A stretch of DNA of 40,158 nucleotides, from the IMG/VR virus record IMGVR_UViG_3300037093_000073, positions 1 through 40,158 of that record. The stretch is one strand, 5' to 3'. The number at the start of each line of letters is the position of its first letter. Within the stretch, counting starts at the first letter, position 1. This document shows positions 2,944-35,781 of this stretch, piece by piece. Under the pieces are notes generated by a model. The model saw only the letters and a program-made list of their open reading frames with translations. It did no database searches and had not been told where the DNA came from. This stretch comes from a virus. Made by a program: the position numbers and the translations under genes.

Positions 2944-3540
2944 TTAATCCTTGGGTGGTGTGTTTGTCTGAACACAATGCCAGAATTCCTTTATTTTTTC
3001 AATAAGAGTTTCAACAAATTCATAATCAAGGGTTACGGGAATGATTATTTTATCTTCCACAAATGAATGATCTGGTTTTATGATTTGGTTGTAAGAAAAA
3101 TAATCCATTTCCTGTACGCCAGCTACGTACATTTGTTGCTGCACTTGCGCCATGTAGTAACGTGGTAGCTCTCCGTGCTGTGCGAGTTTGTGGCTGGCTT
3201 TACCGCATTTGATTTCAACAATATTTTTAAAATCGTCGGAAACCCCATCAAAAGACGCCGAAATAAATGGATGAACCTCACATGTAGCCACCATAGGCAA
3301 AACCAATCTTCCCGTTTGTAGGATGTAAGCATTTCGCGCTTGCTCTTCCATTTCAGTCCCACGACGCATGGCATTATTGACCTCCTTCGTCCAGCCCAAG
3401 CACTTCTCCTGCCAGAGTTGTAGCTTCGTGTGCCAGGGATTCATTCCCATGATTGTAGCAGCATCGCTTGCTCCGACGTGCATCCGCCGAAATTCTAACC
3501 ACTCCGGCGATCCCTGAATCAGATCCTCGTAAATTTTCAT
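2944..3540 (-). CDS. YqaJ-type (lambda exonuclease family) recombination nuclease, 198 aa
   Basis: The start at 3540 has AAGGA six bases upstream; a longer frame to 3585 lacks a site. The protein begins with the YqaJ signature GSPEWLEFRRMHVGASD (residues 10-26). It has the catalytic acidic residue in SFDG (D98) and the ExK pair in VEIKCG (E109, K111) of the PD-(D/E)XK fold. RRGTEMEEQAR (59-69) matches the conserved acidic helix. These enzymes digest one strand from a DNA end to make single-stranded tails. The gene follows the Erf annealing gene, and the exonuclease-annealase pair is the standard phage recombination unit. Confidence 0.88.
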   Translation of the reverse strand: MKIYEDLIQGSPEWLEFRRMHVGASDAATIMGMNPWHTKLQLWQEKCLGWTKEVNNAMRRGTEMEEQARNAYILQTGRLVLPMVATCEVHPFISASFDGVSDDFKNIVEIKCGKASHKLAQHGELPRYYMAQVQQQMYVAGVQEMDYFSYNQIIKPDHSFVEDKIIIPVTLDYEFVETLIEKIKEFWHCVQTNTPPKD

Positions 3541-3560
3541 GTGTTTCCTTGAAATAAGTT

Positions 3561-4202
3561 TTAAACATTTTTTTCCTTTTGCCACTCTGCGTTTTTCTTC
3601 ATTCCGTTCATCACTTGGGGGTATATGTCTTGGGTTATTTGTGCGAAAGTTTCAAAGCCAAGAGTTTTCAAATGATTGTAGACTTTATTCATATAATCTT
3701 CAGAGCAATCAGAGCTAATTGACATCAAAGCAGATAGCTCCGTTGGCAAAATAGGCTGAGCTCTAGGCTTTTCTTTTCCCTTGGGCTTTTCCTTCTCGCC
3801 ATTGCGATTCATTGCCTTTTCTCCATCATCATCTTCATCGCCAGATACAACACCGCAGGCAGCGCAAAGAGCATATCTTTTTCCATAAGAAGTTGCCGAT
3901 CCGACAGATTGTGCATCCTTCTTAGAAATAGGAATTTCAAGGGGTCCAAACTCCATCCATTGACCACTGGAGTGAAGAAGAGTTGTAGAGATAGAAACAC
4001 CATTCTCAGTTGTACAAACGTCTTGTACGGCCGTTAATTCATTTTTACTGAGGGGTTCTCTGATCGCATCCCAAACTGCTTCTAAATTTGAGTAGCGCGA
4101 CTTAAAAAAAGGATTAGCGCTATCTTTTGAAGCTGGTTTCATTTGACCTTGAAAAGCAGACATTGCTTTAGCAATTTCATTTACATTTTCAGATTTATTC
4201 AT
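3561..4202 (-). CDS. erf: Erf-family single-strand annealing protein, 213 aa
   Basis: The start is ATG 4202, preceded by GGAGAGGATTCTT; longer in-frame extensions have no ribosome site. The N-terminal ~120 residues carry the Erf/ssDNA-annealing pattern: NPFFKSRYSNLEAVW (30-44), IREPLSKNEL and GSATSYGKRYALCAACG (101-117). A charged Lys/Glu linker (about 130-150) then leads to a small helical C-terminal domain, the usual two-part arrangement of Erf proteins. Its function is annealing of complementary single strands, working with the exonuclease encoded 20 bases downstream. The start lies within the end of the upstream 64-aa gene, so translation is probably coupled. Confidence 0.88.
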   Translation of the reverse strand: MNKSENVNEIAKAMSAFQGQMKPASKDSANPFFKSRYSNLEAVWDAIREPLSKNELTAVQDVCTTENGVSISTTLLHSSGQWMEFGPLEIPISKKDAQSVGSATSYGKRYALCAACGVVSGDEDDDGEKAMNRNGEKEKPKGKEKPRAQPILPTELSALMSISSDCSEDYMNKVYNHLKTLGFETFAQITQDIYPQVMNGMKKNAEWQKEKNV

Positions 4203-4389
4203 AAGAATCCTCTCCCCGTTTGATATCTTCCTGCTCTCTCCATCTGTAAATAAACTCTTTCGCATCCTCAAAGATAGCGGCTACCTCCAAAGGAGATAAC
4301 CGTTTTAAAACTTCTTCGCGAATTTTTTCCATGTAAGATTCCATAACTTCCCTCTCTTCTGCTATAGAGCATTCTGGGTCATAATTCAT
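4195..4389 (-). CDS. Hypothetical acidic helical protein, 64 aa
   Basis: The product (MNYDPECSIAEEREVMESY...) is strongly charged and predicted helical, with no recognised family. Its start overlaps the end of the upstream gene by four bases, and its end overlaps the Erf start by eight. This compact arrangement and the shared direction mark it as part of the recombination operon. Confidence 0.65.
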   Translation of the reverse strand: MNYDPECSIAEEREVMESYMEKIREEVLKRLSPLEVAAIFEDAKEFIYRWREQEDIKRGEDSYE

Positions 4390-8936: not shown

Positions 8937-9515
8937 ATGAAAAAGATTATTTTTAGCTTATTATTTGCATTCCCGATTTTTTTATCTGCGTCTCAATATA
9001 TCGGTATTCACGGGGGGCCAGATCATGGACATGACACCGACCGATCAAATTCTGGTCAAAAAATGGGATTCGCAATTGGGGGTATTTACGGATATGATTT
9101 TAACAATCAATTCAGGGGAGAGGTTGAAGTTTCTTATAGACAAGCCCATAAACGAACCGTCTACAAAGACAAACTAATCGACCAACTTTTTTCCAGAACT
9201 TACGAATCTAAACATTCAACCGCCTTTATGGTTAATGCATGTTATGACATGTCTCAGCTGGCGATGTACAATCTAAACCCATTTATTGGCGGCGGAATAG
9301 GATTCACCAACAACGTAACTCAATACAAAGCTAAGTATGACGACCATGTTGATAGCGAAAAACGAAGAGATTCTGATTTTGCTTGGCAATTATTAGCAGG
9401 CGTGTCATATCCAATACAAGAAGGTGTCAAAGCAAATATTCGCTATTGTTATCATCAAGGGCAACAGCACACCAAAAGTCATGCTGTTACACTTGGTTTA
9501 GTAAAAGCGTTTTAA
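8937..9515 (+). CDS. Secreted outer-membrane beta-barrel protein, 192 aa
   Basis: The first ~19 residues (MKKIIFSLLFAFPIFLSAS) are a clear signal peptide with an AxA-like cleavage site. The mature part alternates hydrophobic and polar residues in strands ending in aromatics (FRGEVEVSYRQAH, LNPFIGGGIGFTNN, WQLLAGVSYPIQEG, VKANIRYCYHQG) and finishes LGLVKAF. A terminal Phe is the usual BAM recognition signal. This fits the OmpA/Opa-like eight-strand barrel group. A phage gene for a host outer-membrane protein could block receptors (superinfection exclusion) or alter the cell surface. AAGGAAG precedes the ATG. It is the strongest hint of a Gram-negative host. Confidence 0.8.
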   Translation: MKKIIFSLLFAFPIFLSASQYIGIHGGPDHGHDTDRSNSGQKMGFAIGGIYGYDFNNQFRGEVEVSYRQAHKRTVYKDKLIDQLFSRTYESKHSTAFMVNACYDMSQLAMYNLNPFIGGGIGFTNNVTQYKAKYDDHVDSEKRRDSDFAWQLLAGVSYPIQEGVKANIRYCYHQGQQHTKSHAVTLGLVKAF

Positions 9516-16700: not shown

Positions 16701-16729
16701 TTGATTTTGGGTAGGTGATATTATATAAT
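16701..16729 (+). promoter_or_regulatory. Sigma70-like promoter of the HNH endonuclease gene
   Basis: TTGATT (16701-16706), 17 bases, TATAAT (16724-16729), a near-consensus promoter. The predicted transcription start (about 16736) falls in the loop of the hairpin 16725-16750. RNA made here therefore lacks the left arm and keeps the ribosome site free. Confidence 0.65.
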
Positions 16730-16750
16730 GACTCCAACAGGAGTTATTAT
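16725..16750 (+). promoter_or_regulatory. Hairpin that hides the HNH gene's ribosome binding site
   Basis: ATAATGACTCC (16725-16735) and GGAGTTATTAT (16740-16750) form an 11-bp stem with one G-U pair and loop AACA. The GGAG site and the AU of the AUG at 16749 are inside the stem. In read-through RNA from the portal gene, translation should be blocked. This is the same logic known for T4 intron endonuclease genes. Confidence 0.7.
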
Positions 16751-17324
16751 GAAAATTTGCAAAGAATGTGAGAAAGAATTTCAGGAAAAAGTTAGTTTTG
16801 AAAAATATTGCAGTCGCCTTTGTTGTAGTAAAAATAATCAAAGGAAAATATCAGAAAAGTTTAAAAATGACCCTGAATTAAGAAAAAAGAAGACTGAATA
16901 CGAACGTCAGAGAAATGCTAAAGTAGGAAGAAGAAGAGATCGAATAAAACATAATGCAGAAGAAAAAGAAAGATATCGAAAGAAAAATGGTATCAATTCT
17001 GATTCTGATTTAAGATGTGCTCCTAAAGGATCAGGTACATTAACTAAACATGGATATAGACAAATAATAAAACACGGACATCCAAATTGTAGAAAAAATG
17101 GAGACATGTTCGAACATGTTTTTATAATGTCAGAGCATATTGGAAGGCCATTAATAAAAGGTGAAACTGTCCATCATAAAAATGGAATTCGTGATGATAA
17201 TAGGATTGAAAATTTAGAAATATGGCACAGATCACAACCACCAGGACAACGATTAAATGAAAAAATCGAGTGGTGTAAAGAATTCTTAGCTAATTATGGC
17301 TATGATGTGGTACAAAGAAAGTAA
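16749..17324 (+). CDS. HNH homing endonuclease, free-standing, 191 aa
   Basis: I place the start at ATG 16749 behind GGAG; an upstream in-frame ATG at 16728 lies in the hairpin arm and has no site. The N-terminus has a zinc-finger-like Cys set (CKEC at 4-7, CSRLCC at 21-26), followed by a very basic helix. The nuclease part carries the HNH motif: EHVFIMSEHIGRPL, VHHKNGIRDDNRIENLEIW (H142, H143, N155). Such enzymes cut DNA at a specific site and spread their own gene. It is inserted between the portal and small late genes with its own promoter. The target is unknown. Confidence 0.85.
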   Translation: MKICKECEKEFQEKVSFEKYCSRLCCSKNNQRKISEKFKNDPELRKKKTEYERQRNAKVGRRRDRIKHNAEEKERYRKKNGINSDSDLRCAPKGSGTLTKHGYRQIIKHGHPNCRKNGDMFEHVFIMSEHIGRPLIKGETVHHKNGIRDDNRIENLEIWHRSQPPGQRLNEKIEWCKEFLANYGYDVVQRK

Positions 17325-22225: not shown

Positions 22226-24565
22226 ATGATTACGAATACATCCAATTTGGGACCAATGATCCTCCAGAGCTTAGCTCCGGCCATGTTAAAATTTGTATGA
22301 CTTGGTAAAACCCGCTCTGATTGACTTGGAAGGCTAAATCGAAAGACATGCTGACAAGGCGGAACCGTAAAAGGACCGTGAGAGACTAAGTGAGAGGGAT
22401 CCGAAAGGATATGCGATAGTCCGATCCACACGACGAAAGGTGTGGAGAGTAGCAGAAATGACTACTCCCAATCTTAAGTGATTGAGTAACAAGTAGGTAG
22501 ATACGTTCCTACGCCCACAATGAATTATATTACAGTCTGCGATAAGGTCTCGATGCCTACGCACGGTGGTACTACAATTAGATTTATGCGCCCACGCGCA
22601 TTACAACCACCAACTATACAGTTGGGGAACTCCGGTATTGATCCTCCGGCTCAAGTGCCTCAGAGAGATATCATAGACGCTCAAATGGCATTCTTCGGTA
22701 CTGGTTGCATAATTAACGAACAGGTAATTTTGCAAGATCAGGAAGGTGTTTTGGCTTGGGTGTCAGAACGTTTAGCCGTTGCAATGAGACAAGCAGAAGA
22801 CCTTAAAGAAACTCTTTTAGCAGCTTAAGTAAAGTAACAATTGTACTTCAATACGCACATGTGATATAATCCTGGTGAACCAGGAGTTTTACATGAAAAA
22901 TAAGGAAGATTTAATAATGGCCTATGTTGCTGGATTAATAGATGGAGACGGAAGCATATCTCTCATAAAAGAGAAACGTGCTAATGGATTTAAATATTAT
23001 CCATGCATACAACTTAGCAATGTATTTGAGGATATGGTTACATTTCTTCATGATACATTTGGAGGATGCAAAAAAATAAAGAGTCGTCAGGCACATTCTA
23101 AAAAGACTCAATATGTTTGGAATGTAAGAGGTTTGGAATCTTGCAAAAATGTTATTTCAAAGATTTTACCATTTCTTGTTTTAAAACAGAGACAAGGGAG
23201 AAAATTACTGAATTATATTTGCAACCCAACTGAAATAAATCCTGAGATAGAAAGATTAGAAATTCAAGGTTTTAATCTAGATTCTCATACATCAGATGGA
23301 AAAGTTTCAAAGCAAGCTAAGAAAAATACTGATGATGAATGTTTTTGGGCATACTTCGCTGGAATTATGGACACTGAAGGATCATTTTCTGTTAAGAAAA
23401 CATCACCTTCATGGGGATGTAAATCATATCGATTTACACCAATGATTCAGCTAACTATGGCTAGTTTTGATGCAATGAACCATATAAGAAAAAACTTTTG
23501 TTTTGGAAGAATTTGCTTTCCTAAAGCGAAGACAACCCAAAGAGGTTTTGCATATAAACTTATGGTCATTAAGTCCTTTGATTGCATTGAAATGATAAAA
23601 AGACTTACTCCTTATTTAAGATTCAAATGCATGGCTGCTGATGAACTTGTAAATTTTTGCCAAAATATGCAGCCAGTGAAGCACAAACAAAAAGGGGTTT
23701 CTGAATCTGAATTAAGATTCAGAGAAACTTGTTACGAAAATATTAAGCGTATAAATGAAGGTGAGGTCTATAAACCCACTCTGATTGACTTGGAAGCCCA
23801 TGATATGGGCGACAAGGCGGAAGCGCAAGCACCGTGAACGACTAAGTGAGAGGGCATCCGAAAGGATGGTGCGATAGTCTGAACACGACGAATAAATAAA
23901 TGTCGTGAGGGAGATCCGAAGAGGTTTCCCCGCCTGAGAAATCAGGTCATAAAAGTAACAGAAAGATCTTAAGAGATTACATCGTTTCAGCAGCATCTCA
24001 GATCAATGCTGGCGGTGGTTCAAACAACGACAACCCAACTAACCTCGGTATATCCGACTTCAGTTTGGTTGCGACTACTTTGGACACAAACAACGCTTAT
24101 AAGTTCATGTCAGGTATAGAAGGCATGGATCGCTTCGGCACAGGCCCGGTACGATCGGCCTATTTTATGCTTTCTAGCACTGAATTGCAGAGCGATTTTG
24201 ATGGTTTAGTTGGACAAGGATTCTTGTCACAATGGAACTATCCAACCAATGCAAGCGCGTTGCCAAGTGAGTATGGATCAGTTTTCAACACAAGAATTCT
24301 GACATCCTCTGAGGCTCCAGTTGCTCGTGGAGTATCTGCTAACGGTCAAGACGTGTATTACAACACAGTTCTCGGCAAACAGGCGATTACACACATCAAC
24401 CAAGATGGATTCTCAATGAATCTTATCTATAGAGACCCATACTATAGTGGTATGTTGGCCCAAAATGCAACTCTAGCTGTTAAGTTTGCTCAATCGCAAG
24501 CTTTGACACAAGATACTGCTATCAGAAACCTGTTAAGCACACGCTTAGCTAACTTAACACTATAA
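22226..24565 (+). CDS. Major capsid protein, N4-gp56 family, split by two group I introns, 321 aa
   Basis: Proposed coding join: 22226-22287, 22501-22804 and 23966-24565 (966 bases). ATG 22226 follows GGAG. The joined protein reads SLAPAML-YVPTPTMNY across the first junction and RQAEDL-ILRDYIVSAAS across the second. This gives the family's EDxLxRDxL-like segment and the usual GGTTIRF motif near residue 45. Without splicing, stops occur at 22298-22300 and 22826-22828. The last exon contains GIEGMDRFG and the beta-rich core to the end. The protein forms the capsid shell around the scaffold. Family assignment rests on remembered pattern; the splice sites are structural deductions. Confidence 0.85.
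22288..22500 (+). ncRNA. Group I intron 1 (213 nt, no ORF) in the capsid gene
   Basis: P1: exon CCATGTT (22281-22287) pairs with guide GACTTGG (22299-22305), with U-G at the splice site and one U-U mismatch. P10: TGTAT (22294-22298) pairs with exon 2 ATACG (22501-22505). P3: CCC-G-CTC (22311-22317) with GAG-A-GGG (22392-22398). P6: GCGG/CCGT. P7: GACTA (22384-22388) with TAGTC (22417-22421). P8: ATCC-GAAA-GGAT (22399-22410). P9: CCACAC/GTGTGG (22426-22445). The last intron base is G 22500. The P1 loop is only 11 bases. The core closely resembles that of intron 2. Confidence 0.85.
22841..22884 (+). promoter_or_regulatory. Promoter and RBS-masking hairpin of the intron endonuclease gene
   Basis: TTGTAC (22841-22846), 18 bases, TATAAT (22865-22870) with an extended TG, a strong sigma70-like promoter inside the intron. 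The stem CCTGG (22871-22875)/CCAGG (22880-22884) overlaps the AGGAG ribosome site (22882-22886). The predicted start (about 22877) lies after the left arm, so only RNA from this promoter has a free ribosome site. Confidence 0.65.
22893..23837 (+). CDS. LAGLIDADG homing endonuclease, intron-encoded, 314 aa
   Basis: ATG 22893 follows CAGGAG; an in-frame GTG at 22875 lies in the hairpin. There are two LAGLIDADG helices: AYVAGLIDGDGS (about 10-21) and AYFAGIMDTEGS (about 152-163), each with the catalytic acidic residue, so this is a single-chain two-domain enzyme of normal length. It should cut intron-less capsid genes at the exon 2/exon 3 junction and start homing. The last ~25 residues are encoded by the guide sequence and by P3 to P6 of the ribozyme, so gene and intron core overlap. 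It is transcribed from its own promoter. Confidence 0.9.
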   Translation: MKNKEDLIMAYVAGLIDGDGSISLIKEKRANGFKYYPCIQLSNVFEDMVTFLHDTFGGCKKIKSRQAHSKKTQYVWNVRGLESCKNVISKILPFLVLKQRQGRKLLNYICNPTEINPEIERLEIQGFNLDSHTSDGKVSKQAKKNTDDECFWAYFAGIMDTEGSFSVKKTSPSWGCKSYRFTPMIQLTMASFDAMNHIRKNFCFGRICFPKAKTTQRGFAYKLMVIKSFDCIEMIKRLTPYLRFKCMAADELVNFCQNMQPVKHKQKGVSESELRFRETCYENIKRINEGEVYKPTLIDLEAHDMGDKAEAQAP

Positions 24566-35295: not shown

Positions 35296-35781
35296 TCATA
35301 CATGACCCCAAGTTTTCTTATTTACAATGTAACATATGGTTGAAGATTGAAGATTAAAAATATTACCTATTTCTCTCATTGTAAACCCGTTTTCATGAAG
35401 ACGTCTGATTTTTGAAACATCATTATCATTTGTCTTCGATTTATGATTTTTAATTCCCTTCACCTTTTTCTCTCTACCAGCATCTTTCATCTCTTGTAGA
35501 TTCTCTCTTTGAGTACCTAGATGAAGATGATCAGGATTTACACATAAAGAATTGTGACATGAATGAAGAACATTCATTTCATCTTGGATATTTCCTTTCC
35601 ATAATATATATGACGCACGATGAGCTAAAATCATCTTATAAGGTCGCTTTATTGCCAAAGAAATGAATCCATATTGTTTCTTTGGATTACATTTATATCC
35701 CATCCATTCCCAACAGCCATTCATATGAAGTTTTACATATTTCAAAAGTCTAATTTTTGAATCTTCAATATATTTTGTCAT
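35296..35781 (-). CDS. HNH homing endonuclease with helix-turn-helix, 161 aa
   Basis: ATG 35781 follows GAAGGAAATTAA. Residues 23-60 (CWEWMGYK..., GFISL, LAHRASYILWKG) and HSCHNSLCVNPDHLHLGT (73-90) form an HNH_3-type nuclease with structural Cys. The C-terminal ~45 residues (SKIRRLHENGFTMREIGNIF, LQSSTICYIVNKK) form a helix-turn-helix for site recognition. It is free-standing, between ejection proteins and the membrane-peptide cassette, and lacks the promoter/hairpin control seen at the other two endonuclease genes. Confidence 0.85.
   Translation of the reverse strand: MTKYIEDSKIRLLKYVKLHMNGCWEWMGYKCNPKKQYGFISLAIKRPYKMILAHRASYILWKGNIQDEMNVLHSCHNSLCVNPDHLHLGTQRENLQEMKDAGREKKVKGIKNHKSKTNDNDVSKIRRLHENGFTMREIGNIFNLQSSTICYIVNKKTWGHV

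Follow-up and report, generated by a model that had tools for sequence, protein, structure and literature searches.

Two group I introns of different subtypes in a phage major capsid gene, and a proposed degradation tag in the exon frame of one of them

Several group I introns can lie in one phage gene, as in Twort, and the td intron of T4 contains the I-TevI gene, which is controlled by a hairpin covering its ribosome-binding site and by an internal promoter. In the ssrA/tmRNA system and in ClpXP degrons, a C-terminal LAA-type tail is carried by an incomplete protein. In mycobacteriophage LittleE, a likely group I intron that includes a putative homing endonuclease lies in the major capsid gene, and its splicing was demonstrated by RT-PCR and protein sequencing (PMC3706429). 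Polymerase, RNR and terminase genes of Bastillevirinae contain several group I introns per gene (PMC11878797), a paper in which a term search for ssrA found no occurrence.

Here we analyzed a stretch of viral DNA of 40,158 nucleotides (the window), in which the major capsid gene is interrupted twice. As in T4 td, one intron holds an endonuclease gene with a hairpin over its ribosome-binding site and a possible internal promoter, whereas the window gene encodes a LAGLIDADG rather than a GIY-YIG enzyme, sits in the P1 loop and has only a partial promoter match. The same intron encodes an LAA-type tail as ssrA does, with the difference that this tail would be encoded by the intron in cis and not added by tmRNA. 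LittleE is alike in that its capsid gene contains a likely group I intron and a putative endonuclease; it differs in having one capsid intron and in phage type, and the part of its description available to us mentions no in-frame degron-like tail (PMC3706429). Bastillevirinae likewise have multi-intron genes, in other genes and other hosts (PMC11878797). A search of the open-licence literature for capsid introns or multiple phage introns retrieved only the LittleE and Bastillevirinae systems, and a search for intron-encoded tags retrieved nothing relevant, which is weak evidence of absence given the restriction to open-licence papers.

The interrupted capsid gene and its introns

The capsid exons (plus strand, as are all features of this locus) lie at 22226..22287 (exon 1, 62 nt), 22501..22804 (exon 2, 304 nt) and 23966..24565 (exon 3, 600 nt with the stop codon) and join into a 966-nt ORF of 321 amino acids. 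An earlier reading of the DNA, made without database searches (the sequence-only reading), had placed two breaks in the capsid frame at these boundaries, and the recomputed sum (62 + 304 + 600 = 966) was exact. The spliced protein matched the major head protein family phrog_1357 (4.9e-16); a tblastn search of the capsid against named phages gave no match. Both predicted junctions are uninterrupted in 73/73 intronless homologues (>80% identity), whose junction residues are of the types AP[AS][MI]LYVP and RQAED[LI]ILRD[YF], with few changes relative to the spliced window protein. The predicted splice product therefore restores a conserved capsid protein, as had been claimed, and the exact conservation of the junctions suggests that a normal 321-aa capsid protein would be made after splicing.

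Intron 1 (22288..22500, 213 nt) is a group I intron of the alpha subtype (P9 region GCAGAAATGAC) without an ORF, and the exon frame meets a TGA within it at 22298-22300 (...AMLKFV*). P1 pairs 22281-22287 with 22299-22305 (CCAUGUU/GACUUGG; 6/7, U-G at the splice site), and P10 pairs 22295-22298 with 22501-22504 (4/4). The catalytic core (22311..22422), supported by covariation, consists of P3 (22311-22317/22392-22398), P4 (22325-22328/22355-22358), P6 (22359-22362/22376-22379), P7 (22382+22384-22388/22417-22422, with 22383 bulged) and P8 (22399-22402/22407-22410). The same insertion site is occupied in L076-L079, which come from other contigs. Intron 1 carries no endonuclease.

Intron 2 (22805..23965, 1161 nt) is a group I intron of the beta subtype (P9 region ...CCGAAGAGG...GGTCATAAAAGTAACAG). 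Its P1 pairs 22798-22804 with 23763-23769 (AGACCUU/GAGGUCU; 7/7, U-G at the splice site) and its P10 pairs 23758-23762 with 23966-23970 (5/5). Covariation again supports the core (23775..23880) and its P3 (23775-23781/23848-23854), P4 (23789-23792/23813-23816), P6 (23817-23820/23832-23835) and P7 (23838+23840-23844/23875-23880). The guide and P10 pairings proposed by the sequence-only reading were confirmed by script for both introns, and the terminal G is present in each. A scan of P1/P10 allowed other exon/guide combinations (3 solutions in total for intron 1 and 4 for intron 2), among which the noted choice is preferred because it restores the conserved protein.

A large intron family was reached through the motif CTGATTGACTTGGAAG. 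The core structure (P3, P4, P5, P6, P7, P8, the P3/P7 pseudoknot and the P7 bulge) was tested on an alignment of 47 sequences that included both window introns, and 98.0% of cells were paired; sliding the partners by 1-3 columns reduced pairing to 39-48%. Changes on both sides of a pair occurred in 282 cells versus 76 in shuffles and in 22/31 core pairs, P7 pairs 104-142 (AU/GC) and 98-147 (AU/GC/UA) covaried, and 0/500 shuffles reached the covariation score. A foldable group I core at both breaks, as originally seen, is thus backed by covariation over 47 relatives far beyond chance. The covariance-model search that had been suggested as a check (Rfam RF00028) matched neither window intron, a miss that reflects the library threshold rather than any structural trait expected of group I introns; with this model, whose cut-off is 50 bits, the score of a relative in L150 was 25.7 bits (E 0.014). 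These comparisons support two group I introns interrupting one major capsid gene, with splicing itself predicted.

The P1 loop of intron 2 holds a LAGLIDADG homing endonuclease gene (22893..23837, 314 aa; PF00961 2.7e-11, PF14528 3.8e-8), whose 3' end overlaps the core (P3-P6) and whose two LAGLIDADG motifs contain acidic residues (VAGLIDGDGS and FAGIMDTEGS). A single close relative of the enzyme was found, in L081 (61% identical), where the intron occupies another position in the capsid gene. The enzyme of intron 2 probably makes that intron mobile. Upstream, a candidate extended -10 (TGATATAAT, 22862..22870) is a perfect match by sequence, and the promoter scan makes no call because the -35 is poor. 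A hairpin predicted over the Shine-Dalgarno sequence (22870..22885; region 22860-22905, -12.1 kcal/mol) disappears from a transcript that starts at 22876, so that a transcript from near this position would be without the 5' arm and its Shine-Dalgarno predicted to be free. The resemblance of hairpin and extended -10 to the control of T4 I-TevI is only suggestive.

Elsewhere in the window, HNH endonuclease-like genes or fragments lie outside the introns (16728-17324; 35296-35781 and 2378-2605, both minus strand), and a YqaJ exonuclease and ERF recombinase pair lies at 2944-4271 on the minus strand (PF09588 1.1e-29, PF04404 2.9e-27). An outer-membrane beta-barrel protein (8937-9515; PF13505, 2.5e-15) is perhaps derived from the host.

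Tails encoded in the exon frame

In the frame of exon 2, translation would continue into intron 2 (22805..22828) through K-E-T-L-L-A-A to a stop (...EDL-KETLLAA*), giving an LAA-type, ssrA-like C-terminus that we propose as a degron. Within the window only intron 2 has such a tail; intron 1 (KFV*) does not. The sequence-only reading mentioned neither this tail nor the LAGLIDADG gene nor the size of the family. The intron of L081 ends in ...ENYLLAA*, with codons partly different from those of intron 2, and further exon-frame tails include ACDYALAA, AYDYAIAA, AYNYAKAA, AEQFALAA, AEMLLAA, ELLAA, SVIAA and similar sequences.

To count such tails, introns preceded by 60 or more open codons in the LIDLE frame were taken as in-frame and those with fewer than 30 as the out-of-frame control; near copies were removed, and in the first sample and the pooled count the endonuclease genes' own frames were excluded by hand. 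For replication, a criterion was fixed beforehand (Ala-Ala in at least 25% of in-frame versus less than 8% of control introns), only previously unseen introns were counted, and loci were fetched with two sequence patterns, of which one had been named. The pooled count additionally required a P7 motif downstream. Ala-Ala tails occurred in 25/60 in-frame versus 5/101 out-of-frame introns of the first sample (p = 1.3e-8), in 23/33 versus 2/27 at the new loci (p = 6.5e-7) and in 46/91 versus 5/126 in the pooled count (p = 3.4e-16), Fisher counts that overstate independence even after removal of near copies because the introns are related. The other two frames of the first-sample introns gave Ala-Ala in 0/120 and letter shuffles in 0.3%. 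Split by position of the stop, the pooled counts were 20/50 in-frame versus 0/41 for stops in P5 and 26/36 versus 4/58 for stops in the P6 region; tails ending in [LIVMF]AA made up 29/91 versus 2/126.

Among capsid introns whose exon was identified through homology to the capsid protein, Ala-Ala was found in 20/64 of those after residue 60 and in 0/9 of those before it, intron 1 included, compared with 2.2% of ordinary ORF C-termini on these contigs. The other late tails include endings in VAFS, VAYC or AYGVS, a second common type that is also nonpolar, and some tails without a clear degron. Tails of the Ala-Ala type recur at many capsid sites and in other gene families. For three intron-interrupted ORFs that do not belong to this capsid family, PHROGs provided no name, and the label "capsid" is therefore not supported for them. 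In SPbeta-like Bacillus prophages, taken as isolate genomes from their IMG record numbers, introns in the tape-measure gene have the tails VIAA, VMAA and VMVA. The gene is uninterrupted in phi3T, to which the exons of L465 align without an insert of roughly 223 nt. Introns in this gene, yomI, were seen in L465 (about 4115-4337), L474, L478, L481, L492 and L494, and further in L495, L501, L510, L516 and L526. A separate in-frame intron, at about 5400-6020 of L570, ends in EILL* and has no tag; the ORF upstream of it may encode an RtcB-like RNA ligase.

A proposed degradation tag and the stop-only alternative

We propose that a ribosome on the unspliced message would read from exon 2 into intron 2, add KETLLAA and stop at once, that this tail would direct the truncated fragment of capsid protein to proteolysis of the ClpXP type, and that with the fragment removed the intron would leave no harmful partial capsid subunit. 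The same marking role would fall to the tails of related introns that are inserted late, and a very short product, such as the 24 aa expected from intron 1, may need no tag. We consider it probable that the window holds two independently acquired introns of two subtypes and that the tail of intron 2 is a degradation mark on the capsid fragment of the unspliced message. The broader proposition, that one widespread phage group I intron family encodes ssrA-mimicking tags in the exon frame, inside ribozyme loops, appears fairly likely, with somewhat less assurance.

The principal competitor, which we judge unlikely, holds that the introns need only an early in-frame stop to keep ribosomes off P7, that this stop is supplied by RNA sequences (P6 GCAGCGTGA, P5 loops), and that Ala-rich tails are by-products. 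Consistent with it, a stop before P7 was commoner in-frame (86/91 versus 99/126), and work cited in PMC11878797 links splicing of a T4 intron to translation of the upstream exon. The P6 3' strand CAGC[CG]TGA is conserved RNA and gives AA* in one frame: roughly half of the Ala-Ala tails finish with the codons GCnGC[CG]TGA, and because this doubles as P6, AA* is partly forced by the RNA in those tails. The main weakness of the tag proposal is accordingly that part of the tail signal is structural.

Tails that end in P5 or in the P1 loop are free of the P6 sequence constraint, and the P5-ending ones, without any fixed sequence, still gave the excess of Ala-Ala reported above. Tail codons vary mostly synonymously (GCT/GCA/GCG/GCC), and this variation is real. 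For P5 tails of the LLAA class (8 distinct sequences) pN/pS was 0.11, against 1.12 for the same stretch of out-of-frame introns; DYAxAA tails gave 0.23 (0.48 for the 13-residue class with one outlier) and VAxS tails 0.48, all of these values coming from few short sequences in classes picked by amino-acid sequence, a choice that lowers pN. Even among P6-stop tails, the residue before Ala-Ala was L, I, M or F in 15/26 in-frame cases. We argue that the P5 and P1-loop tails, together with this preceding residue, speak against a purely structural signal. At the level of sequence, the enrichment of the tails, their coding-type constraint and their replication in new loci are established.

A separate suggestion, that the tails copy the tmRNA tag of the host, found no support: the tags of three chlamydial MAGs with capsid relatives in their bins end in AAA, MAA and VAI, which is no clear match, and the host is uncertain (4/11 genome-bin matches were chlamydial MAGs, the rest being scattered and perhaps misbinned).

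Origin of the introns and implications

The sequence-only reading described the cores of the two introns as nearly the same in bases and one intron as probably a copy of the other. Near-identity stood for the conserved core and failed for core plus P9 region, which is 57% identical, whereas the best matches in introns of other phages reach 73% and 76% for the two window introns. In a 42-intron tree, intron 1 grouped with introns of L112, L012 and L160 (11-row group, support 100/98) and intron 2 with those of L194 and L111; forcing both into one clade cost 58.9 log units (AU p = 1.6e-4). A quick 153-row tree, in which the constrained tree scored higher (p-AU 0.70), gave no decision on sisterhood because its free search was poor. 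That the window introns are recent copies of one another inside the capsid gene is thus highly improbable: they belong to the same family and share the near-identical core motif, but this motif is family-wide, and the differing P9 subtypes, the identities and the rejected clade all count against copying. By the tree and subtype evidence, the introns were acquired independently and represent two subtypes within a single large family of phage introns.

The supposed rarity of two introns in one capsid gene also did not survive: among 97 interrupted capsid genes mapped in the fetched loci, 18 have two and 4 have three recognized introns (22/97), at more than a dozen insertion sites whose positions, taken from tblastn ends, are approximate. 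Introns of the same family were observed in the portal genes of related phages, L160 (4759-5190, two introns close together) and L012 (503-627), at about portal residues 67/68 and 77/78, so that the family is seen to move from gene to gene. In L190 (1-201 and 1036-1203), capsid residues of about 120-186 match twice, like a duplicated exon piece beside introns. The least probable reading is that the capsid gene is broken by assembly error, frameshifts or decayed elements and not spliced, for which the missing Rfam calls can be cited, against a conserved junction restored exactly, twice, a covarying ribozyme core, the intron at the intron 1 site in L076-L079 and many other interrupted homologues.

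Good splicing is usually regarded as the sole reason why group I introns are tolerated. If the tag proposal is true, a built-in degron would be a second, protein-level way of cutting the cost of an intron, which would help to explain an intron hotspot in a gene whose product is made in many copies for each virion and whose partial subunits could poison assembly. The Bacillus SPbeta-type tape-measure genes, with and without the intron, would make the tag testable in a standard host. Under the broader proposition, products of unspliced messages would be destroyed, a mobile element would deal at the level of protein with the errors of its own expression, and a single stretch of RNA would be selected twice over, for its ribozyme and for its degron function.
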